Source of the DNA: Clostridia bacterium
Lineage (GTDB): Bacteria > Bacillota > Peptococcia > DRI-13 > SM3-B62
Assembly: GCA_018433675.1 (NCBI GenBank)
Contig: JAHDQS010000043.1
Coordinates: 1 to 35,397, forward strand
DNA length: 35,397 bases
Reading direction: 5' to 3'
Position numbers and translations under genes: made by a program. A model generated the notes under the pieces. It searched no databases, was not told where the DNA came from, and saw nothing but the letters and a program-made list of their open reading frames with translations. This document shows, piece after piece, positions 4,998-26,217 of this stretch (positions within the stretch are counted from its first letter, which is position 1; each line of letters begins with the position of its first letter).

Positions 4998-5155
4998 TGT
5001 TTCCTCCCAAATTGTTCCTGTTAATATAAAGTATACTACCATCTGTAACATATTCATAGAGACGGAAAATTTTTCTGGCGGAACTTTTTTTATTGTGAAA
5101 GGGTCAGTTAGGTAGATCGTAAAAATGAATGTAAGAGAAAGGTGAAGGATGCATT

Positions 5156-6901
5156 ATGAAAAAAAGTGTTGCTGGTGTCTTGTTGTCTAGCCTCATGGTC
5201 CTTTTTATCTTTGCTGCATCCGTATCCTCTGCGGCCGGCACTGAGAAAGCCCTCACAATACCCCTGGCCTTAAGATCTGCTGAAACTTTAAACAAATTAG
5301 GGTTGTTTCAGGGGACTGAAAAAGGCTATGAATTAACGAGACATACGACCAGAGCGGAGGCGGTCACGATGGTGCTTCGTATGGTTGGTGAAGATGAAGC
5401 GGCCTTATCATTAAATACTCCCATAGATTTTGCCGACATTGCCGAGTCTCATTGGGCACATGCCAACATTGGATATGCCGTTGCTAAGGGATATATTGAA
5501 GGAACGAGCAAAACAACCTTTGGGCCGACAGAGAAAATCACGGGACAGGGGTTCGTAAAAATGCTGCTTACGGCTATGGGACACAAGGGAGTAACAGTTG
5601 AAAACGCCTATGACAGGGGCGTGGAAAGCGCACTCTTGGTCAACAACTATACGAAGTATGCCGTATCTACCAGCGGTTATCAATTGCAAAGAAATGACAT
5701 GGTAAATATTTGCTACTCGGCACTGTTGGCCAAAGATGTGGAAGGGAAGATGCTTAAGGAAGTTTTGATTACTAAGGGTGTAATCACTGAGGAAGATTTC
5801 AACAGGCTTTTAATTGACGTGAGAGGGGTTGACAAAAACCCTCAAGCCAGAAAGTTCGCCTGGGCACTGAATGAGCTGATGCCGAAGGATGAGAACTACA
5901 TGTTTTCTCCGTTGAGTATAAAATTAGCCTTGGCAATGACAGCAGTGGGAGCAGACGGCGAAACAAAAGCAGAGATGCTGGAAGCTTTGGGAATCGCCAA
6001 TCTGGATGAGTTCAACGAATTCGCGAAACAAATCATCAGGGAATATGGAGAAAAGGAAGAGGTAAGGCTAGAAATTGCCAATTCCCTATGGCTCAATAAG
6101 GATTACTATTCCGGTGACGTACAATTTGCAGATGACTTTGCGGCAGTGATTGCCAAATACTATGATGCCGCCAGTGGGGAAGTTGATGCTTCAGACGCAG
6201 TGAAAAGAATCAACGAATGGGTTTTTGATAAGACGGAAGGTAAAATAACAGAGCTGATTGATGATAGCGATTTTCTGGCTTATATCGTCAACGCCATCTA
6301 CTTCAAGGGAGAATGGGATGTTCAGTTTCCGACATACGCCACGGCAGAAAGGGAATTTACCGGAAGAGATAATCAGAAAAAGCAAATCGACTTTATGAAC
6401 CTGACCGATAGTTTTGATTACTATGAAAACAAAGACCTGCAGATGGTCAGGCTGCCCTATCAGGATGGCAAGACCGGCATGTATGTAGTGCTCCATGAGG
6501 GCCGGGACATTGATTTGGATAAGGTTATCGAGGAAATGGAGCGTAAGAGAGTCAAGATCAGTCTGCCGAAATTCAAAATAGAATCTGAAATGCAATTAAA
6601 AGGGATCTTATCCGAAATGGGCATTAAAACAGCATTTGACAAGAATAAAGCGGATTTCAAAAAGATGTTTACGGCTATTTCCGAGAATACGTTTATTACC
6701 GATGTGATTCATAAAACATTTATTGATGTTGATGAGAATGGGACAGAAGCGGCCGCTGCCACCGGTGTTGAGATGGGACTTACCAGTATGCCTATTGAAG
6801 AGCCGATTGTTTTTACAGCGGATAGACCCTTTGTCTACTTTATCCGTGATGACGCCAGCGGTGAAATACTGTTTATGGGTGAATACGCTTACGCGGAATG
6901 A
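5156..6901 (+). CDS. Secreted serpin with N-terminal S-layer homology domains
   Basis: A 581-residue protein: signal peptide (1-27, cut after SSAAG or nearby), SLH-type repeats at about 38-210 (TRAEAVTMVLRMVG; FADIAESHWAHANIGYAVAKG), then a complete serpin domain from about 225 to 581. The reactive-centre hinge GTEAAAATG matches inhibitory serpins (small residues at P12-P9, Thr at P14 and P8). Aligning this with alpha-1-antitrypsin puts P1-P1' at Thr543-Ser544. So it is predicted to be a suicide inhibitor of serine or cysteine proteases displayed on the cell wall, with a specificity for small uncharged residues (elastase- or subtilisin-like). AAGGTGAAGGA precedes the ATG. It is a single-gene transcript with its own terminator. 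Inhibition is predicted from the hinge only. Confidence 0.92.
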   Translation: MKKSVAGVLLSSLMVLFIFAASVSSAAGTEKALTIPLALRSAETLNKLGLFQGTEKGYELTRHTTRAEAVTMVLRMVGEDEAALSLNTPIDFADIAESHWAHANIGYAVAKGYIEGTSKTTFGPTEKITGQGFVKMLLTAMGHKGVTVENAYDRGVESALLVNNYTKYAVSTSGYQLQRNDMVNICYSALLAKDVEGKMLKEVLITKGVITEEDFNRLLIDVRGVDKNPQARKFAWALNELMPKDENYMFSPLSIKLALAMTAVGADGETKAEMLEALGIANLDEFNEFAKQIIREYGEKEEVRLEIANSLWLNKDYYSGDVQFADDFAAVIAKYYDAASGEVDASDAVKRINEWVFDKTEGKITELIDDSDFLAYIVNAIYFKGEWDVQFPTYATAEREFTGRDNQKKQIDFMNLTDSFDYYENKDLQMVRLPYQDGKTGMYVVLHEGRDIDLDKVIEEMERKRVKISLPKFKIESEMQLKGILSEMGIKTAFDKNKADFKKMFTAISENTFITDVIHKTFIDVDENGTEAAAATGVEMGLTSMPIEEPIVFTADRPFVYFIRDDASGEILFMGEYAYAE

Positions 6902-6940: not shown

Positions 6941-6984
6941 AAGAGGACTGGCAAAACCATTTATTTGATTTTGCCGGTCCTCTT
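6941..6984 (+). terminator. Terminator hairpin of the serpin gene
   Basis: A 16-bp stem (AAGAGGACTGGCAAAA with TTTTGCCGGTCCTCTT, one G-U pair) and a 12-nt loop, 40 nt after the serpin stop codon. The expected T tract is absent after the stem. Instead GTAG and a sequence like a group II intron 5' end follow, suggesting that an insertion displaced the T tract. Confidence 0.7.
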
Positions 6985-7087: not shown

Positions 7088-7462
7088 ATGAATATTATTA
7101 TCAGCAATTCCAGCGGACAGCCGATATATGAGCAGATAGCCATGCAGATAAAGAACCTAATCATCGCAGGTAAGCTGCAGGAGGGTGACGCCCTTCCTTC
7201 CATGCGTTTACTGGCTAGGGAACTGCGTATCAGCGTGATTACCACAAAAAGGGCTTATGAGGAACTGGAAAAAGAAGGTTTTATTTTTTCGTTCACCGGA
7301 AAAGGTAGTTTTGTCGCAAGCAAAAATATTGATTTAATCAGAGAGCAGCAGCTACGGGAAATTGAGGATCATATGCAGGCTATCGCGGAAAAAGCAGAGG
7401 TCTGCGGGCTGCGATTGGAAGAACTGGTGGCAATGCTCAACCTCATTTACAAAGGGGAGTAG
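7088..7462 (+). CDS. GntR-family transcriptional regulator (YtrA-type)
   Basis: A 124-residue protein with an N-terminal winged helix-turn-helix: PIYEQIAMQIKNLIIAGKL (residues 13-31), then LPSMRLLARELRISVITTKRAYEELEKEG spread over about 37-66, with the conserved R and Y/E pattern of the family, and a wing FSFTGKGSFV. The effector domain is only a short C-terminal helical part of some 45 residues, the hallmark of the YtrA subfamily, whose members usually control ABC exporters. It is first in an operon: the ATPase starts 4 nt after its stop, and the permease follows. A palindrome over its promoter suggests autoregulation. The inducing ligand is not evident; cell-envelope antibiotics are typical for the subfamily. 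Confidence 0.92.
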   Translation: MNIIISNSSGQPIYEQIAMQIKNLIIAGKLQEGDALPSMRLLARELRISVITTKRAYEELEKEGFIFSFTGKGSFVASKNIDLIREQQLREIEDHMQAIAEKAEVCGLRLEELVAMLNLIYKGE

Positions 7463-7465
7463 AAA

Positions 7466-8317
7466 ATGGATTATGCTTTAGAATTGGCGGATGTATCAAA
7501 AAAGTACGAGGGTTTTGCGCTGGAGCAAGTGAATATTAAGCTGTCCCGGGGATATATAATGGGGTTTATCGGAGAAAATGGAGCCGGTAAGACCACGACT
7601 ATCAAGCTTATCCTGGATTTGATCAAGAGGGATGCGGGAAGAATAAGTGTGTTGGGTAAAGACAACCTTACGGAATTAAGTCAGGTCAAGGAACACTTGG
7701 GGGTAGTGATGGAGGACAGTTATTTCCCGGACAACTTGACGGCAGTGAACGTCAACAGCATTTGTAAGAATCTATACAAAACCTGGGATGAGGCTAAGTA
7801 TGAATCCCTGCGGAAACAATTTTCCCTTCCGGGAGGGAAAATAATCAAGGAATACTCAAAAGGTATGAAAATGAAATTGTCTATTGCCGCGGCACTGTCT
7901 CACGGGACAAAACTTCTCATTCTGGATGAGGCTACCAGTGGCCTGGATCCTATCGTGCGTGAGGAAATACTGGATGTGTTTTTGGAATTCATTCAAGACG
8001 AGAAGAATTCCGTCTTTATGTCGTCGCACATCATCAGTGACTTGGAAAAAGCCTGCGATTATATTACCTTCATTCACCAAGGAAAAATCCTTTTTAGCCG
8101 GAACAAGGATGAATTGCTTGAGGATTATGGGGTTTTGAAGTGCTCGGAAGAAGAGTTTGCCGGGATTGATGCCTCGGCCGTCAAGGGATATCGAAAAAAC
8201 AGTTTTGGCGTAGAGGCTCTTGTTCTTAAAGACAAAATAAGAGGTAGAGTAACCATTGATCGGGCAAGTATCGAGGATATCATGCTTTACCATATTAAGG
8301 GGGCGAAAAGACAATGA
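7466..8317 (+). CDS. ABC transporter ATP-binding protein (YtrB-like)
   Basis: A 283-residue ATPase. Walker A GENGAGKTTT (about 36-45), signature YSKGMKMKLSIAAAL (about 129-143), Walker B KLLILDEATSGLD and the H-loop in MSSHIISDLE are all intact. The C-terminal 70 residues are a short divergent tail seen in exporter ATPases. AAAGGGGAG precedes the ATG. It sits between the regulator (3 nt gap) and the permease (4-nt overlap) and is expected to work with that permease in the membrane. Similar GntR-ABC sets respond to cell-wall-active compounds, but the substrate here cannot be read from the sequence. Confidence 0.92.
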   Translation: MDYALELADVSKKYEGFALEQVNIKLSRGYIMGFIGENGAGKTTTIKLILDLIKRDAGRISVLGKDNLTELSQVKEHLGVVMEDSYFPDNLTAVNVNSICKNLYKTWDEAKYESLRKQFSLPGGKIIKEYSKGMKMKLSIAAALSHGTKLLILDEATSGLDPIVREEILDVFLEFIQDEKNSVFMSSHIISDLEKACDYITFIHQGKILFSRNKDELLEDYGVLKCSEEEFAGIDASAVKGYRKNSFGVEALVLKDKIRGRVTIDRASIEDIMLYHIKGAKRQ

Positions 8318-8934
8318 GAGGACTCCTGATTAAGGACCTTATTAATTTGAAAAAGCAATACAGAGTTTTGCTGGTTATGTTCGTGTTTTACATTGTTGTT
8401 TCCCTTACCAGTGGGGACAATGCCTTTTTTGGCGGGGTTGTTTCTATCATGATGGTGATGCTTACTGTAACCTCGATGTCTTATGATGAGTATGCAAAAT
8501 GGGATAAATATGCCCTGACCATGCCTGTCTCCAGACGTGATTTGGTGCTCAGCAAGTACCTTTTGGGTTTGCTTCTATCCGGTGCTGCTTTTGTAATAAA
8601 TCTGCTGTATCAGGCATCAATGGAGTTGCCATACAAAGAAGCTCTAGGTATGGCGTTTTCGTTGGCCGGTGTCAGCATTCTATTTATATCGCTGGTCTTG
8701 CCTTTCCTTTTCAAGTACGGAATGGAAAAGGGTCGTTTGATAATGATGCTTGTTTTATTTATACCAACGGGAATTATTATGGTAGGAGCCAATATGATAC
8801 CTAAAATGGGGCTGACGTTGCCTGATCCGGATGTTCTAAACAGTCTGGTATATATCCTGCCGTTTGTTCTATTGATTATTGTAGCCGTTTCAATAATATC
8901 CTCTTTAAGAATCTATCAGAATAAGGAGTTTTAG
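8314..8934 (+). CDS. ABC-2 family permease partner
   Basis: A 206-residue membrane protein with about six hydrophobic helices (near residues 18-34, 36-52, 84-103, 111-131, 139-158 and 175-198). After the second helix is the motif DEYAKWDKYALTMPVSRRDLVLSKYLLGLL, shortened here as DEYAKWDKYALTMPVSR, typical of the ABC-2 permeases that partner YtrB-like ATPases. Its start overlaps the ATPase stop by 4 nt, so the pair is translationally coupled. It is presumably the membrane half of the exporter. No clear terminator is seen between its stop and the next promoter at 8980. Confidence 0.85.
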   Translation: MRGLLIKDLINLKKQYRVLLVMFVFYIVVSLTSGDNAFFGGVVSIMMVMLTVTSMSYDEYAKWDKYALTMPVSRRDLVLSKYLLGLLLSGAAFVINLLYQASMELPYKEALGMAFSLAGVSILFISLVLPFLFKYGMEKGRLIMMLVLFIPTGIIMVGANMIPKMGLTLPDPDVLNSLVYILPFVLLIIVAVSIISSLRIYQNKEF

Positions 8935-8979
8935 CATCCTTGTATACAGGTGTGCATATATTGAAGTATGCGGGCATCA

Positions 8980-9008
8980 TTGCAAAATAAAGCGTTGTAT
9001 GCTATAAT
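8980..9008 (+). promoter_or_regulatory. Sigma-A promoter of the riboswitch-aminomutase transcript
   Basis: TTGCAA (8980-8985), a 17-nt spacer and a perfect TATAAT (9003-9008). The start point would be near 9015, just ahead of the riboswitch aptamer. Confidence 0.75.
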
Positions 9009-9032
9009 GATAAACAAATCACCGTGGATTTA

Positions 9033-9144
9033 ATGCCGAGTCCGGTCCCGCGACCGGAGTGGGGGACCCAGAATTTGGGGTGAATCCGGCTTTGCCGGTA
9101 GGGCAGTCCCCTTGCCCGAACCCGTCAGCTAACCTCGCAGGCAT
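9033..9144 (+). promoter_or_regulatory. c-di-AMP riboswitch (ydaO/yuaA class) aptamer
   Basis: The conserved ydaO blocks occur in order: GCCGAGTCC, GGGGGACCCA, TTGGGGTGAATCC, GTAGGG, CCCGAACCCGTCAGCTAACC and CTCGCAGGC. The closing helix P1 is ATGCC (9033-9037) with GGCAT (9140-9144); internal hairpins CCGGT/ACCGG and CCGGC/GCCGG are intact. The class binds the second messenger c-di-AMP and usually switches genes off for potassium uptake, osmolyte supply and wall remodelling. Here it precedes a predicted glutamate 2,3-aminomutase. It is not a cobalamin riboswitch despite the radical-SAM gene downstream. Confidence 0.93.
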
Positions 9145-9217
9145 GTTGGGGAGGGTACAACATCAAAAAATAAGGATGACCCTCTTCGTTTGTGGTTAAA
9201 AAAAAGAACAAGGAGGG
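9143..9217 (+). promoter_or_regulatory. Riboswitch expression platform with competing pairings
   Basis: ATGTTG (9143-9148), which shares two bases with P1, can pair with CAACAT (9158-9163), holding GAGGGT (9151-9156) in the loop. Alternatively GAGGGT pairs with ACCCTC (9179-9184), a stem followed by TTCGTTT, a weak terminator-like tail. The same CCCTC (9180-9184) can also pair with GAGGG of the ribosome binding site (9213-9217). Whether control is by termination or by translation is not settled by the sequence. Confidence 0.5.
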
Positions 9218-9223
9218 ATTTTT

Positions 9224-10495
9224 TTGTCTAGGGAAGGTTATATAAGCACTGAATCGCCGGAAGAAAAACGCGAAATATCTTTACGCAGAGCCGAGGGGCT
9301 CAAGAGGGAAATTGCTGATTATCTTAGTATAGAGAAAAATATTGAAACGGGAATGAGATTTCATGAGCGCAGCGTGCGCAATAGGGAGCGTATTTTGGAA
9401 TATTTTGGGGCAGATGAGCAGAGCTGGGATAATTGGAAGTGGCAGATGAAAAACCGTGTCGGTGACGTGGAGACATTGGCTTCAATATTAAATCTGAGCG
9501 AGCTGGAAATACATGCGATCAAGAGGGCTTCAAAACAGCTTCGTTGGGCTATTTCCCCGTATTATCTCAGTTTGATTGATTTTGAGAATCATGAGGAATC
9601 ACCTATTTACATGCAGTCTGTTCCCAGTTTACTCGAGCTAAAGGATAACCAAAGTGAGGATGATCCGATGGGAGAAGAAACGACTAATCCGGCTCCTCGT
9701 ATTACACGCCGTTATCCCGATAGATTGATTATCAATGTAACCAACCAATGTGGGATGTACTGCCGGCATTGTCAGCGTCGCAGGAACTTCGGCGAGACCG
9801 ACAGGCATGCGGCTCACGAGGATTTGGAAGCCGCTTTGCAGTACATTAGGGAAAACCCTGAGATAAGGGATGTACTTGTAACCGGCGGGGATGCCTTCAT
9901 GCTAAGCGATAAGGAGATTGATTGGCTCTTAGGGGAATTGGATGCCATTGAGCATGTGGAAATCAAGCGTCTCGGGACGAGAGCGCCGGTGACTATTCCG
10001 CAGAGGGTCACACCTGAGCTTTGCCGGATACTGAAAAAATATCCTCCTCTCTATATCAATACACAGTTTAATTCGCCTATGGAGGTTACTCCGGAAGCCA
10101 AGAAGGCTTGTGATATGTTAGTTGAAGCGGGAGTTATTTTGGGTAACCAGGCTGTCTTACTTAAAGGAATAAATGATGACCACAATGTGATGAAGAAGCT
10201 TAATCAGGAACTTTTAAAGATAAGGGTACGTCCTTACTATATCTTCCATGCCAAAGAGGTCAAGGGCACGACTCATTTCATTGCTCCGGTGCAGAAGGGT
10301 CTGGAGATCATGAAGCATTTGCGCGGTTACACGTCAGGCTTGGCTATACCAACTTATATTATCAATGCGCCGGGCGGCTATGGTAAGACACCGGTCAATC
10401 CGGAATACGTGCTGTCTCTCGATGAGAAAGAGGTTGTAATCCGTACCTGGCAGGGTAAGACCTTCCACTACCCTAACCATACCTTTGAGAAGTAG
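9224..10495 (+). CDS. eam: Glutamate 2,3-aminomutase (radical SAM, PLP)
   Basis: A 423-residue radical-SAM enzyme of the lysine 2,3-aminomutase family. The iron-sulfur motif CGMYCRHC (Cys176, 180, 183) and the PLP lysine (Lys388 in PGGYGKTPV) are present. In lysine 2,3-aminomutase two Asp residues (Asp293 and Asp330 in the clostridial enzyme) bind the substrate's distal amino group. Here the same places are Lys344 (IFHAKEV) and Asn381 (YIINAPGG), the pair reported for Clostridioides difficile glutamate 2,3-aminomutase (Lys332/Asn369, same 37-residue spacing). It should therefore convert L-glutamate to beta-glutamate, a compatible solute. The start is TTG with AGGAGGG seven bases upstream. It is a single gene behind a c-di-AMP riboswitch. 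The reaction is inferred from the pocket residues. Confidence 0.88.
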   Translation: MSREGYISTESPEEKREISLRRAEGLKREIADYLSIEKNIETGMRFHERSVRNRERILEYFGADEQSWDNWKWQMKNRVGDVETLASILNLSELEIHAIKRASKQLRWAISPYYLSLIDFENHEESPIYMQSVPSLLELKDNQSEDDPMGEETTNPAPRITRRYPDRLIINVTNQCGMYCRHCQRRRNFGETDRHAAHEDLEAALQYIRENPEIRDVLVTGGDAFMLSDKEIDWLLGELDAIEHVEIKRLGTRAPVTIPQRVTPELCRILKKYPPLYINTQFNSPMEVTPEAKKACDMLVEAGVILGNQAVLLKGINDDHNVMKKLNQELLKIRVRPYYIFHAKEVKGTTHFIAPVQKGLEIMKHLRGYTSGLAIPTYIINAPGGYGKTPVNPEYVLSLDEKEVVIRTWQGKTFHYPNHTFEK

Positions 10496-10532
10496 TGGTT
10501 TAATGGGTGAAACTTGACTTATGTATAACTGA

Positions 10533-10566
10533 AGGGCATCCTTTCCGGGGATGTCCTCGTTTATTG
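10533..10566 (+). terminator. Probable terminator of the aminomutase transcript
   Basis: A 9-bp stem including one G-U pair (AGGGCATCC at 10533-10541 with GGATGTCCT at 10549-10557), a 7-nt loop, then CGTTTATT. The T tract is weak, but the position 40 nt after the stop codon is right. Confidence 0.5.
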
Positions 10567-10642
10567 TGAATGCAACAAGGTTCCCGAGGCCTAACAGCTA
10601 TCTTTAACATACATTCGGCAAGTTACGTATTACAGTTGGGTA

Positions 10643-10671
10643 TTGCAGTTCGGAGAAAAAATACATACAAT
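10643..10671 (+). promoter_or_regulatory. Sigma-A-type promoter for the activase gene
   Basis: TTGCAG (10643-10648), 17 nt, TACAAT (10666-10671). It lies 75 nt before the ATG of the large activase gene. The leader contains AAGGAGG (10713-10719) unusually far (27 nt) from the ATG, with a small hairpin CAGC/GCTG (10726-10739) in between that could shorten the distance. Confidence 0.55.
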
Positions 10672-10746
10672 AGAAGTATTAACAATAAGTCATGATGCTG
10701 TATTTGTTGGCCAAGGAGGTGAATACAGCGTAATAGCTGCAGTGCT

Positions 10747-13700
10747 ATGGAAAACACCTATCATGCTGGCATTGATATTGGTTCTACAACGATTAAGGTA
10801 GTTATCCTAAATGGTAATAAAGATTTGGTTTACAGCAAATACGAAAGGCATTATGCAGATATCAAGCAAAAGCTTCAGCATATACTTTTTGATGCATATA
10901 GCATTTTGAAAAATGTCGAAATGACGGTGATGATTACCGGTTCCGGCGGGATGGGTATTGCCAAAAGTATTGGCGTTCCCTTTACGCAAGAAGTCATTGC
11001 CGCCACCAAGGCGATCAAAACCCATTATCCCCAAACAGACGTGGCGATCGAATTGGGAGGCGAAGATGCTAAAATAACCTATTTTAAAAATGGGGTCGAG
11101 CAGAGGATGAACGGTGTTTGTGCTGGGGGAACCGGTTCGTTCATCGATCAAATGGCCTCCCTGCTTAAGGTTGATGCGAACGGCCTTAACGAACTCGCCA
11201 AGAACTATAAGATGCTGTATCCTATCGCGGCCAGGTGCGGGGTGTTTGCCAAGACCGACGTCCAGCCCTTGTTGAATGAAGGAGCAGCCAAAGAAAATAT
11301 TGCCGCCTCAATATTGCAGGCTGTTGTCATCCAGACAATCAGTGGGCTGGCATGCGGACGCCCCATTAGGGGAAACGTGGCCTTTTTGGGAGGACCACTG
11401 TTTTTCATGTCAGAATTGAGGAAACGTTTTATAGAAACCTTAAAATTACAGCCAAGCCAAATCATCTTTCCCGAGAATTCGCAGCTTTACGTGGCGATTG
11501 GCGCTGCCTTGTCTTCGGAAGGCGAAAAAGCGGTGCATCTCAGTTCCTTACTGAACAGGATGGAGAAGATCGGCAGGGTCAGTCTGGATGAATCATACAG
11601 ATTGCCTCCGCTGTTTGCCGATGATCATGAATATCAAGAATTCAAAGCAAGACATAGTCAAAACTCAGTAAAAAGAAGAGAATTGTCTTCCTTTGCAGGA
11701 GAGTGTTTTCTGGGAATAGATGCCGGGTCTACCACTACAAAAGCAGCTCTCATCGATAAGGACGGGACGCTTTTATATACCCATTATGGCAGCAATGAAG
11801 GCAGTCCCTTGAACTCTACGATTGAAGCCTTGAAGGGATTATATCGGCAATTACCGGCAGGGGCGAAAATAGTTAATTCAGCCGTTACCGGGTACGGTGA
11901 AGGCTTAATAAAAGAGGCCTTAAAGGTTGATATCGGTGAGATAGAAACCATAGCCCATTACAAGGCTGCGGAATTCTTTTGTCCGGCAGTGGATTTCATC
12001 CTTGATATCGGCGGTCAGGATATGAAGTGTCTACAGATCAAGGAAGGGGTTATCGACAGTATACTCTTAAATGAGGCCTGTTCTTCCGGTTGTGGTTCGT
12101 TCCTTGATACGTTTGCCAGCTCGTTGGGAATAGGTATTGAAGATTTTGCTGCAGCAGCCCTGAAGGCAAAAAAACCGGTTGATCTTGGTTCAAGGTGTAC
12201 TGTGTTCATGAACTCCCGAGTCAAACAGGCTCAAAAAGAGGGGGCGACGGTCGGAGAGATTTCCGCCGGTCTTTCTTATTCGGTAATAAAAAATGCCTTG
12301 TTTAAGGTAATAAAATTGAAGGATCCTCAAGAGCTTGGAGGTAAGATTGTTCTCCAGGGCGGTACCTTCTATAATGATGCGGTCCTCAGAAGCTTTGAAA
12401 ACTCAGCGGAAAGAGAAGCCATTAGACCGGATATTGCGGGAATTATGGGTGCTTTCGGTTCCGCTTTGATTGCTAAGGAAAGATATATTAAGGGTTATCA
12501 GACAAGCCTGTTAGACAGATGCGAGCTGGAGGAGTTCGAGATTAAAACGACTATTTCAAGGTGTGGTTTGTGTTCGAACAATTGCTTGCTAACGATAAAT
12601 GAGTTCAAAGACGGTGAAAAATATATTTCCGGCAACAGGTGTGAAAAAGGGGCGGGAAAATGGAAGAAAGAAAACGATTTACCCAACCTTTTTCAGTACA
12701 AATATCGCAGAATCTTTGGCTACAAACCCTTGCCGTCCTCTGTGGCAAAAAGGGGCAGTGTGGGGATACCCAGGGTGCTAAACCTATATGAGAATTATCC
12801 CTTCTGGTTCACATTTTTTACGGAATTAGGCTTTAGAGTCCTGCTTTCGGATAGAACCTCACATGCCATTTATGAGAAAGGAATGGAAACTATTCCTTCC
12901 GAGTCGGTATGCTATCCGGCGAAGCTCGTTCACGGCCATGTCACAAACCTTGTGGAAAAGGGTGTCGATTTTATTTTTTATCCTTGCATTACCCATGAAC
13001 AGAAGGAACAGCCGGAAGCAGACAACCACTTCAACTGTCCGATAGTTATTTCCTATCCCGAGGTCATTAAAAATAACCTTGATATCCTGCGAGAAAAAGA
13101 CATTCTGTATCTGAAGCCCTTTTTGCCCTATGATGATCAGAAACGGTTAACGCAAAGAATATATGAGGAATTAGGGGTATTCAATATCAGCATGGATGAG
13201 GTTAAAGCAAGCGTTGAAAAGGCTTATCGGGAACAAGAAGCCTTTAAAAGGGATATTCAAGAAGCCGGGGAAGAAACCCTCAAGCTTATCAGAGAAAAGG
13301 GGCTTCGCGGCGTTGTGCTTGCCGGCAGGCCTTATCATATCGACCCGGAGATCAATCACGGCATTCCGGAGATGATCAATACATTAGGGATGGCCGTACT
13401 AACCGAAGATTCTGTGGCGCATCTGGGAAAGGTTGATAGACCTTTGCGCGTGGTGGATCAATGGGCCTATCACTCAAGACTATATGCCGCAGCCAGCTTT
13501 GTAGCCAAGCAAAAAGATATAGAGCTGGTACAGCTGAATTCCTTTGGTTGTGGTTTAGATGCCATCACTACCGACCAGGTGCAGGAGATTATGCACGATA
13601 ATTCAAAAATATACACAACCCTTAAAATTGACGAGGTTAACAATTTAGGGGCTGCCAGAATAAGGCTGCGTTCTTTGAAGGCTGCTGTGAGGGAAAGGGA

Positions 13701-22258: not shown

Positions 22259-23026
22259 ATGTGTCTGATTCTCTGCGCCTATCAGCACCATCCCAAGTAT
22301 CCGTTGGTCATTGCGGCGAACAGGGATGAATTCTATGAGCGTCCGACCGCGCCGGCAAAATATTGGGAGGATTATCCGGATATCCTGGCCGGGCGTGACC
22401 TTGAACAGATGGGCACTTGGCTTGGCATTGACAGAAAAGGACGTTATGCTGCCGTAACCAATTACCGCGATCCACGCCTGAAGAAAGAAGGGGTGTACTC
22501 CAGAGGAAGACTGGTTGCCGACTATTTATGCGGAAAGAAAGAGCCGTATGAATACCTGACGGATGTCAGTAAGGCAGGGAATGAATACAATGGGTACAAC
22601 CTTTTGGCAGGTGATAGCAACTCTCTATATTACTACTCTAATATTGAAGGCGCTTTAAAAAAGGTTAGCCCCGGCGTGCATGGCTTAAGCAATCACCTTT
22701 TGAATACGCCCTGGCTCAAGGTAGAAAAAGGCAAGCAGGCGCTAAAGAGGTATTTAGCAAGTGATAGGGCCGGGGACCCCTTTGAGCTGTTGACGATAAT
22801 GTCGGATGATACGGAGGCTGAGGAACATTTACTGCCCTGTACCGGAGTGAGCTTAGAATGGGAACGTCTTCTTTCCTCGATATTTATCAGAGGTGAATCA
22901 TATGGTACGCGTTCAACCACTGTAATATTTGTTGACTATCGTAATCACGTGCAGTATATTGAAAGAAGTTTTCTGCTGGATTCCGGCAAGTGGCAAGAAG
23001 CGGCTTACGAGTTCGATATCACTTGA
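22259..23026 (+). CDS. NRDE-family protein (TANGO2-like Ntn-hydrolase fold)
   Basis: A 255-residue protein that opens with MCLILCAYQHHPKYPLVIAA, followed at once by NRDEFYERP, the family's name motif. Cys2 becomes N-terminal after Met removal and is the expected nucleophile of the Ntn-hydrolase-like fold. Other conserved parts are GTWLGIDRKGRYAAVTNYRD, GYNLLAGD, VHGLSNHLLNTPWLKV and YGTRSTTVI near the C terminus. The human relative TANGO2 is linked to heme or lipid handling, but the bacterial role is not established. AAGGGGG precedes the ATG. Its end overlaps the convergent flavoprotein gene by 8 nt. Confidence 0.9.
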   Translation: MCLILCAYQHHPKYPLVIAANRDEFYERPTAPAKYWEDYPDILAGRDLEQMGTWLGIDRKGRYAAVTNYRDPRLKKEGVYSRGRLVADYLCGKKEPYEYLTDVSKAGNEYNGYNLLAGDSNSLYYYSNIEGALKKVSPGVHGLSNHLLNTPWLKVEKGKQALKRYLASDRAGDPFELLTIMSDDTEAEEHLLPCTGVSLEWERLLSSIFIRGESYGTRSTTVIFVDYRNHVQYIERSFLLDSGKWQEAAYEFDIT

Positions 23027-24447: not shown

Positions 24448-24514
24448 CTTCTGATTACTTTTGCAAGTTATTTATGCACAAAGGGTTTATGTACATAGTG
24501 AGGTGGTGTTTATA

Positions 24515-25180
24515 ATGCGAGAAATTGATCAAATGGCTGTAGATGCAGCGAATGATGCTGAGAAGCTATCTGTGTTTATTGAGGAACACGAAATATTCAT
24601 ATTAAGAATTGCCTCAAAGACAGCCAAACGTTATGTGTCAAAAAGCGATGATGAGTGGTCAATCGCATTGGTTGCCTTCTCTGATGCTATTAAAAAATAT
24701 GACTACAAACGGGGGAGCTTTATTCCGTTTGCAGAACTCATGATTCATCGAAACCTTGTAGATTATTTCAGAGTTCAGGGACGACGCAGCGTGGAGGTTC
24801 AGGTTGATTGTATTGAAGACGAAGCCATTGTTGAATACAATGATAATAATCTAAAATTAGAAATTGAAGCTATAACTCAAGTTCTTGAGAGCTATGAGTT
24901 TAGCTTCATGGATTTAGTTGAATGCTCACCAAAGGCAAATAAAACAAAGAAGGCCTGTGCCAAAGTCGTGTCCTATATTTTGAACAATCCAATACTAGTA
25001 AAGGAAATGCGAGCTTCAAAACAATTACCGGCTAAAATAATAGAAAAAAATGTGGGTATACCCCGAAAAATATTAGATCGTCATCGTAAATACATAATAG
25101 CAGCAGCTGAAATTCTCCACGGAGATTACCCCTATCTTTCGGATTATTTAAGCTATATAAGGGAGGCGAATAAGAGATGA
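24515..25180 (+). CDS. sigI: RNA polymerase sigma factor SigI
   Basis: A 221-residue sigma factor of the SigI family. Region 2 is clear: FILRIASKTAKRYVSKSDDEWSIALVAF appears in part as SKSDDEWSIALVAF (about residues 44-57), then AIKKYDYKRGSFIPFAELMI and HRNLVDYFRVQGR. The C-terminal SigI-specific domain ends with MRASKQLPAKIIEKNVGIPR and RKYIIAAAEILHGDYPYL. SigI factors respond to heat or wall stress in bacilli and to polysaccharides in cellulolytic clostridia. The chosen ATG has AGGTGGTG ahead of it; an upstream in-frame start at 24461 lacks one. Its stop overlaps the rsgI start by 4 nt. Confidence 0.92.
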   Translation: MREIDQMAVDAANDAEKLSVFIEEHEIFILRIASKTAKRYVSKSDDEWSIALVAFSDAIKKYDYKRGSFIPFAELMIHRNLVDYFRVQGRRSVEVQVDCIEDEAIVEYNDNNLKLEIEAITQVLESYEFSFMDLVECSPKANKTKKACAKVVSYILNNPILVKEMRASKQLPAKIIEKNVGIPRKILDRHRKYIIAAAEILHGDYPYLSDYLSYIREANKR

Positions 25181-26217
25181 AGGCAACAGTAGTGGAGATT
25201 AAAGACGGATTTGCTGCATTGCTAAAGGAAGATGGAATTATCGTGAAAGTGCAAAGTGAAAACTTTAAAATTGGAGATGTGGTGAATATGAAAGAAAAGG
25301 CAATACGAAAGAAAGGAAGATTAAGTGCCATAGTGGCAGCGGCGGCAATGTTTGTCATGCTGTTCGGAGGCGGAGTATATGCATATGCGACTCCTTCTTA
25401 CTATGTAAGTCTTGATGTCAATCCGGGAATCCTGATGGAAGTCAATATCTTTGAACGTGTCATTGGGATGGAAGCCGCCAATGAAGATGCAATAGAGGTT
25501 CTAGCCGGATTAGATTTAAAGAATAAAGATATCAAAGACGCTACATCTGTAGCTGTCGAACGTTTAACGGAATTGGGCTATTTTGATGGAGAAGACGGCA
25601 AAATTTTGATTGCCGCTATTTCGAAAAATGAAGACAAGGCCGAACGTTTAGCTGGAAAGATGCAGGGTGCGGCGGAAGAAGAAATTGCGGAAAATGGGGT
25701 AAAAGCTGAAGTGGCGGCTGGAGCCGTTGGCTATGAGATGGTACAGGCGGCTAAAGCTATTGAAGGGATGACACCTGGTAAATACAATATCATCGTGAAC
25801 CTGCTTGGGATCGATCCTGAAGTGGCGGCTGACTATGCAGAGACATCTATAAAAGATTTAATGGCAGAATACACAGCATCAAAGGGCGCAGAAGGCAAAG
25901 GGAGAACTGAAAAAGCGGCTGCGAAAGTGCAAACTCGAGAAGAAAACGGGAAACCAGCTGAAAATGAAGGAGTAAAGGAACGAAATGCTGCAGGTAAAGC
26001 TGAACAAGCCGGAAACCAAGCTGGAAATGCAAAAGTTGATGTACCGGCTTCAGGTAAAAAAGCACTAAATGAGGATGCAATGGAAAACAATGCAAAAGAA
26101 GAAAAACCAGAAACACCTGAAAAACCCAAAACGCCTAAAAAACCAGAAAAGCCAGTAACCCCAGAAAAGCCTGAAAAACCGGAAGTTCCCGTAGGCGGGA
26201 AAGACCATAAAAGCTAA
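25177..26217 (+). CDS. rsgI: Anti-sigma-I factor RsgI
   Basis: A 346-residue single-pass membrane protein. Residues 1-45 form the RsgI N-terminal anti-sigma domain (MKATVVEIKDGFAALLKEDG). One helix follows (about 49-71). Next is the juxtamembrane domain SYYVSLDVNPGILMEVN, where homologues cleave themselves between Asn and Pro (here Asn82-Pro83). A helical part runs to about 240. The last 100 residues are low-complexity, rich in Lys, Glu and Pro (repeats such as KPEKPVTPEKPEKPE), probably spanning the wall. Unlike the clostridial paralogues with carbohydrate-binding or enzymatic ectodomains, no sensor module is recognisable. It overlaps sigI by 4 nt, so the pair forms one operon. Confidence 0.92.
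   Translation: MKATVVEIKDGFAALLKEDGIIVKVQSENFKIGDVVNMKEKAIRKKGRLSAIVAAAAMFVMLFGGGVYAYATPSYYVSLDVNPGILMEVNIFERVIGMEAANEDAIEVLAGLDLKNKDIKDATSVAVERLTELGYFDGEDGKILIAAISKNEDKAERLAGKMQGAAEEEIAENGVKAEVAAGAVGYEMVQAAKAIEGMTPGKYNIIVNLLGIDPEVAADYAETSIKDLMAEYTASKGAEGKGRTEKAAAKVQTREENGKPAENEGVKERNAAGKAEQAGNQAGNAKVDVPASGKKALNEDAMENNAKEEKPETPEKPKTPKKPEKPVTPEKPEKPEVPVGGKDHKS

Follow-up and report, generated by a model that had tools for sequence, protein, structure and literature searches.

The window, the whole 35,397-nucleotide stretch of DNA analysed here, encodes at positions 5156 to 6901 of the forward strand a protein (SLH-serpin) that carries a predicted signal peptide, a predicted SLH trimer and a full serpin domain with an inhibitory-type hinge. 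In our view SLH-serpin is probably a suicide inhibitor tethered to the wall and directed at subtilisin- or elastase-like proteases, own or foreign. The sequence, the fold prediction and the occurrence of CsaB in the genome give good support to the two predicted elements of this reading, display on the cell wall and an inhibitory serpin. The first-pass annotation had placed SLH repeats and a full serpin in one polypeptide; the open reading frame is exact, and Pfam matches both Serpin (PF00079, residues 232-577, E 7.5e-94, 315 bits against a cut-off of 27, profile positions 4-367 of 370) and a single SLH repeat above the cut-off (residues 92-130, E 5.4e-10). The features of the locus are as follows.

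5140..5149, +: probable ribosome-binding site, purine-rich AGGTGAAGGA (read from sequence)
5156..6901, +: SLH-serpin gene, 581 aa plus stop, ATG start, with an ortholog in L004/L034
5156..5233, +: predicted signal peptide, about residues 1-26, MKKSVAGVLLSSLMVLFIFAASVSSA (read from sequence; cleavage point approximate)
5234..5830, +: predicted SLH trimer module, about residues 27-225 (module alignments, AlphaFold2 model, PDB fold matches)
5261..5395, +: SLH pseudo-repeat 1, with GLFQG (Gly53) and TRAE (Arg66), lacking the Trp (profile, alignment)
5429..5584, +: SLH repeat 2, with Trp100, GYIEG (Gly116) and TGQG in place of TRAE (Pfam, profile, alignment)
5597..5770, +: SLH pseudo-repeat 3, with QRND (Arg179) at the TRAE position, lacking the Trp and GIIxG (alignment, fold)
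5840..6898, +: serpin domain, residues 229-581 (Pfam, fold and sequence matches)
6734..6763, +: inhibitory hinge P17-P8, ENGTEAAAAT, residues 527-536 (published consensus, PMC8233489)
6782..6787, +: predicted P1-P1' Thr543-Ser544 (canonical counting from P17/P15)
6943..6982, no strand assigned: intergenic stem-loop GAGGACTGGCAAAA...TTTTGCCGGTCCTC, with a poly-T tail on the minus strand only

The gene is solitary. Upstream, on the opposite strand, lies an LTA-synthase-like sulfatase gene, and downstream are a GntR regulator and an ABC-2 transporter; no protease gene adjoins it, and an operon with a protease was ruled out by these neighbours. A sister-species MAG, Clostridia bacterium SV3-B7.1, contains an ortholog with 91% identity flanked by the same sulfatase and GntR/ABC-2 genes (L034, identical in sequence to L004 from G001), and comparison of the two gives a dN/dS of 0.11 over the serpin and 0.22 over the SLH module, which together exclude a chance ORF. 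All 23 residues of the reactive loop from P17 to P6' are identical in the sister species (23 codons, a small sample). Elsewhere in the window, 25177-26217 encodes an RsgI-like anti-sigma factor directly 3' of a sigma-70 region 2 gene at 24461, and 22259-23026 encodes a bacterial homologue of TANGO2 (PF05742).

The top fold matches of the serpin model are serpins throughout, and the nearest solved relatives by both sequence and fold are conserpin, tengpin and miropin. SLH-serpin keeps every column that does not vary among 69 serpins (W355, T360, N379, W387, F401, P471, G529, P558, F559 and F573). The hinge consensus of inhibitory serpins from P17 to P9 is ExGTEAAAA (PMC8233489), which ENGTEAAAA of SLH-serpin fits, with small residues at P12-P9. 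The GTEAAAATG stretch that the first-pass annotation had called inhibitory-type occupies residues 529-537 within this hinge, and canonical counting arrives at the same Thr-Ser scissile bond, Thr543-Ser544, that it had predicted. Of the 68 serpins that could be read, most of them from the class and phylum, 30 have Thr at P1 and 20 have the pair Thr-Ser, in each case the most frequent choice; the loop is therefore ordinary for the phylum. It hints at elastase- or subtilisin-like targets but does not prove them. Subtilisin is not inhibited by the siropins, although these are inhibitory bacterial serpins (PMC5127057), and the target class is for this reason a guess. Full-length AlphaFold modelling gave a good serpin (pLDDT ∼90) with the hinge drawn as a strand at residues 529-536, in a model that does not separate the native from the loop-inserted state.

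Judged by eye, the N-terminus MKKSVAGVLLSSLMVLFIFAASVSSA has the textbook N-, H- and C-regions of a Sec signal peptide. Its signal region ends ASVSSAAG, without the lipobox cysteine at the signal peptide end that marks lipoprotein serpins.

The first-pass annotation spoke of SLH repeats in the plural, a description that the individual repeats bear out unevenly and the module as a whole bears out better. With a profile made from the SLH repeats of this same genome, repeat 1 matched weakly (8.5 bits), repeat 2 matched clearly (27.9 bits) and repeat 3 gave no match. Used as a query, the module of about 200 residues matched serpin-less proteins over residues 16-195 (for example G022:C55, 2.5e-18, and G007:C122) as well as proteins bearing a separate N-terminal domain; some match was present in 34 of the 46 genomes of the class, many of these being partial SLH matches. 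The alignment displays a common pattern of GLFxG and TRxE in repeat 1, FxDV..W and G...G without the Arg in repeat 2, and R.D in repeat 3. Because the same pattern recurs in unrelated surface proteins, we take the module to be an SLH subtype and not a product of decay. It was modelled separately, since the SLH part of the full-length AlphaFold model was poor and the alignment shallow there, and AlphaFold2 on the module alone reached a pLDDT of 81 and a pTM of 0.80. Foldseek comparison of this model with the PDB returned SLH trimers as the only significant matches, and VIA-align superposed it on SpaA-SLH with a Z score of 17.1 (2.4 Å rmsd over 149 residues; next fold 9.5); a PDB search by sequence gave weak Sap matches only. 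The whole module is thus predicted to be a three-repeat SLH trimer, though a single repeat passes Pfam.

SpaA holds its ligand through SLH-Arg43, Gly29 and Trp13, contributed by three different repeats, groove 2 being formed by the Arg of SLH1, the Gly of SLH2 and the Trp of SLH3, with groove 1 secondary (PMC6081394). Homology with SpaA, shifted by one repeat and drawn from sequence, predicts a complete Arg/Gly/Trp triad in groove 1 (Arg179, Gly53 and Trp100), a groove 2 that keeps Arg66 and Gly116 without the Trp, and a groove 3 that is probably lost, with no triad residue. Gly53 and Trp100 are invariant in the alignment of the module family. With groove 3 and the groove 2 Trp apparently lost, affinity may be low.

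The SLH ligand is made by a pyruvyl transferase, CsaB, and the genome encodes a CsaB equivalog (TIGR03609, 281 bits against a cut-off of 213), in a cluster that by eye includes murJ- and tagO-like genes, and SLH repeats occur on six further contigs. CsaB is also present in the sister genome and in the gut genomes tested (G428, G429 and G430); in G212, where the relative is a lipoprotein, nothing scored above the cut-off.

We propose that SLH-serpin would be exported by the general secretory pathway and held non-covalently on the wall by its SLH trimer binding to pyruvylated secondary cell-wall polymer, with a standard inhibitory serpin facing outward. A subtilisin- or elastase-type serine protease, preferring a small uncharged P1, would attack Thr543-Ser544, whereupon insertion of the hinge into beta-sheet A would trap the protease as a covalent acyl-enzyme, each SLH-serpin molecule being used once. 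Its likely role would be to shield proteins of the cell surface, either from subtilases that the cell itself secretes or from foreign proteases. The genome encodes three trypsin-like proteases and four proteins with a subtilase (S8) domain. Two of the four (C22:132982 and C21:2999) are large proteins that carry signal peptides and Big2-like repeats. L039 (G000:C21), a secreted protein of 2615 aa, combines three Big2-like repeats with a subtilase domain and repeats of RHS/YD type.

The module could instead be a worn, non-binding remnant on a secreted or loosely held inhibitory serpin that acts mainly in the surroundings, as might be read from the single Pfam-passing repeat, the canonical TRAE in repeat 1 alone and the failure of repeat 3 to match the profile. 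We regard this as unlikely, since the pattern shared with unrelated surface proteins marks a subtype, the groove 1 triad is kept and a dN/dS of 0.22 places the module under purifying selection. A further possibility accepts the anchor and questions the inhibition. Non-inhibitory serpins exist, and a wall-anchored serpin might serve as a binding or structural protein; the inhibitory-type P17-P8 hinge, with its small P12-P9 residues, and the unchanged loop of the sister species make such a function distinctly improbable here.

Tengpin requires its N-terminal extension for the native state (PMC6718151), and tengpin structures are among the top fold matches, so that the SLH part might chiefly aid folding or metastability of the serpin, with anchoring as a side effect. 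The module, however, also occurs without any serpin, and the close serpin relative L037 does without the module, and we give this idea very little credence. We retain the wall-tethered inhibitor as the best explanation.

Bacterial serpins had been called uncommon in the first-pass annotation, which is wrong for this phylum: 75 of 398 sampled phylum genomes have serpins, as do 40 of 63 from one gut family. Its statement that few are tethered through S-layer domains holds, since six SLH-serpins were found, two genomes of this genus and four of the gut family accounting for them, the gut-family count covering part of that family's serpins. A sample of 86 other serpins read from the order, class and phylum sets comprises 59 with a lipobox, 25 with another hydrophobic N-terminal stretch and two that are truncated, by a simple, crude pattern that errs low for lipoboxes. 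The serpin itself is of an ordinary kind for these bacteria and its SLH anchoring is rare; we found no paper describing the fusion among the open-access articles searched. Two faecal phage records hold serpins with 33-35% identity and no close kinship to SLH-serpin; these coding sequences, in unannotated 'Bacteriophage sp.' records (MT835510 and MT835777), may be mis-sorted bacterial contigs.

Many serpins of gut Clostridia (L085, L087, L089, L119, L124, L168, L185 and others) appear to place a charged cytoplasmic N-terminus and a single membrane span ahead of the serpin. These (for example MKDREAIRMFDHIRPETLAETDL...) resemble anti-sigma factors in layout, and a signalling serpin is possible. 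Some gut-family serpins carry a similar unassigned domain (DAQYIRTDGYHDNVKYPKVTVITSKDEL...) on one side or the other, C-terminal in L164, L173 and L182 and N-terminal in L187 and L199.

All six SLH-serpins fall in one serpin subclade (support 100/99), in which the window serpin and the gut SLH-serpins are joined by the lipoprotein L037 and by L086, a lipoprotein with a copper-amine-oxidase-type stalk. The distribution of SLH on the tree needs three changes, at least two of them forced by starred branches, and the tree does not reject a single grouping of the SLH-serpins (p-AU 0.13). The window module matches non-serpin SLH proteins (2.5e-20) and not the modules of the gut serpins (E 0.25-3). 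One origin of all SLH-serpins, permitted by the p-AU value, was set aside, the anchors not being detectably related beyond the SLH fold. Because the modules come from two unrelated SLH families, two independent fusions are suggested; the simplest reading is two separate fusions or the swap of one anchor for another. Somewhat short of an even chance, in our view, is the wider proposal that the same serpin subclade was joined at least twice to SLH anchors of unrelated families, with close relatives held by a lipid or by a copper-amine-oxidase-type stalk. Under this proposal a wall-held inhibitor would have been favoured by selection again and again, and anchor exchange would be a general trait of bacterial serpins.

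The role of bacterial serpins is an open question (PMC8233489), and a wall-fixed serpin in a genome with secreted subtilases allows the idea of self-protection to be tested directly. Relatives with SLH, lipid and membrane anchors, compared with one another, suggest that these bacteria almost always retain the inhibitor on the cell.

Among known proteins, the SLH trimers of SpaA (Paenibacillus alvei) and Sap share the predicted anchor fold of SLH-serpin, which differs in having one groove apparently lost and one incomplete, and in carrying a serpin as cargo in place of an S-layer lattice protein. The gut Clostridia SLH-serpins (L035, L036, L188 and L191) likewise have an apparent signal peptide, three SLH repeats and a serpin of the same subclade, but their SLH subtype is another, with undetectable similarity to the window module, and their reactive loops differ. 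Miropin, the siropins, tengpin and conserpin belong to the same serpin superfamily and lack an SLH module. Bacillota lipoprotein serpins, including the genome's second serpin (G000:C44), have the same fold, inhibitory hinge and cell tethering, whereas their anchor is a membrane lipid, their serpin clade is another and their P1 region differs. In both L001 (G000:C44, ∼7368-11450) and L003 (G001), a lipoprotein serpin adjoins a secreted protein with a copper-amine-oxidase-type domain and a trypsin-like serine protease; the sister species keeps the pair, which could act as an inhibitor and its protease. The dockerin-bearing clostridial serpins, proposed for comparison in the first-pass annotation, are an apt parallel. 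Of the C. thermocellum serpins, two are cellulosomal and one is membrane-bound, and one of them inhibits subtilisin (PMC6718151). As is proposed for SLH-serpin, Clostridium (Acetivibrio) thermocellum PinA / Clotm-serpins 1-3 are clostridial inhibitory serpins with an extra module that fixes them near the cell surface. They dock to scaffoldin or the membrane, whereas SLH-serpin has a predicted SLH trimer and would need no cellulosome; a Pfam scan found no dockerin in it, which rules out a cellulosomal link. SLH-serpin extends the known surface-held serpins of clostridia by another form of anchoring and does not amount to a new kind of system.
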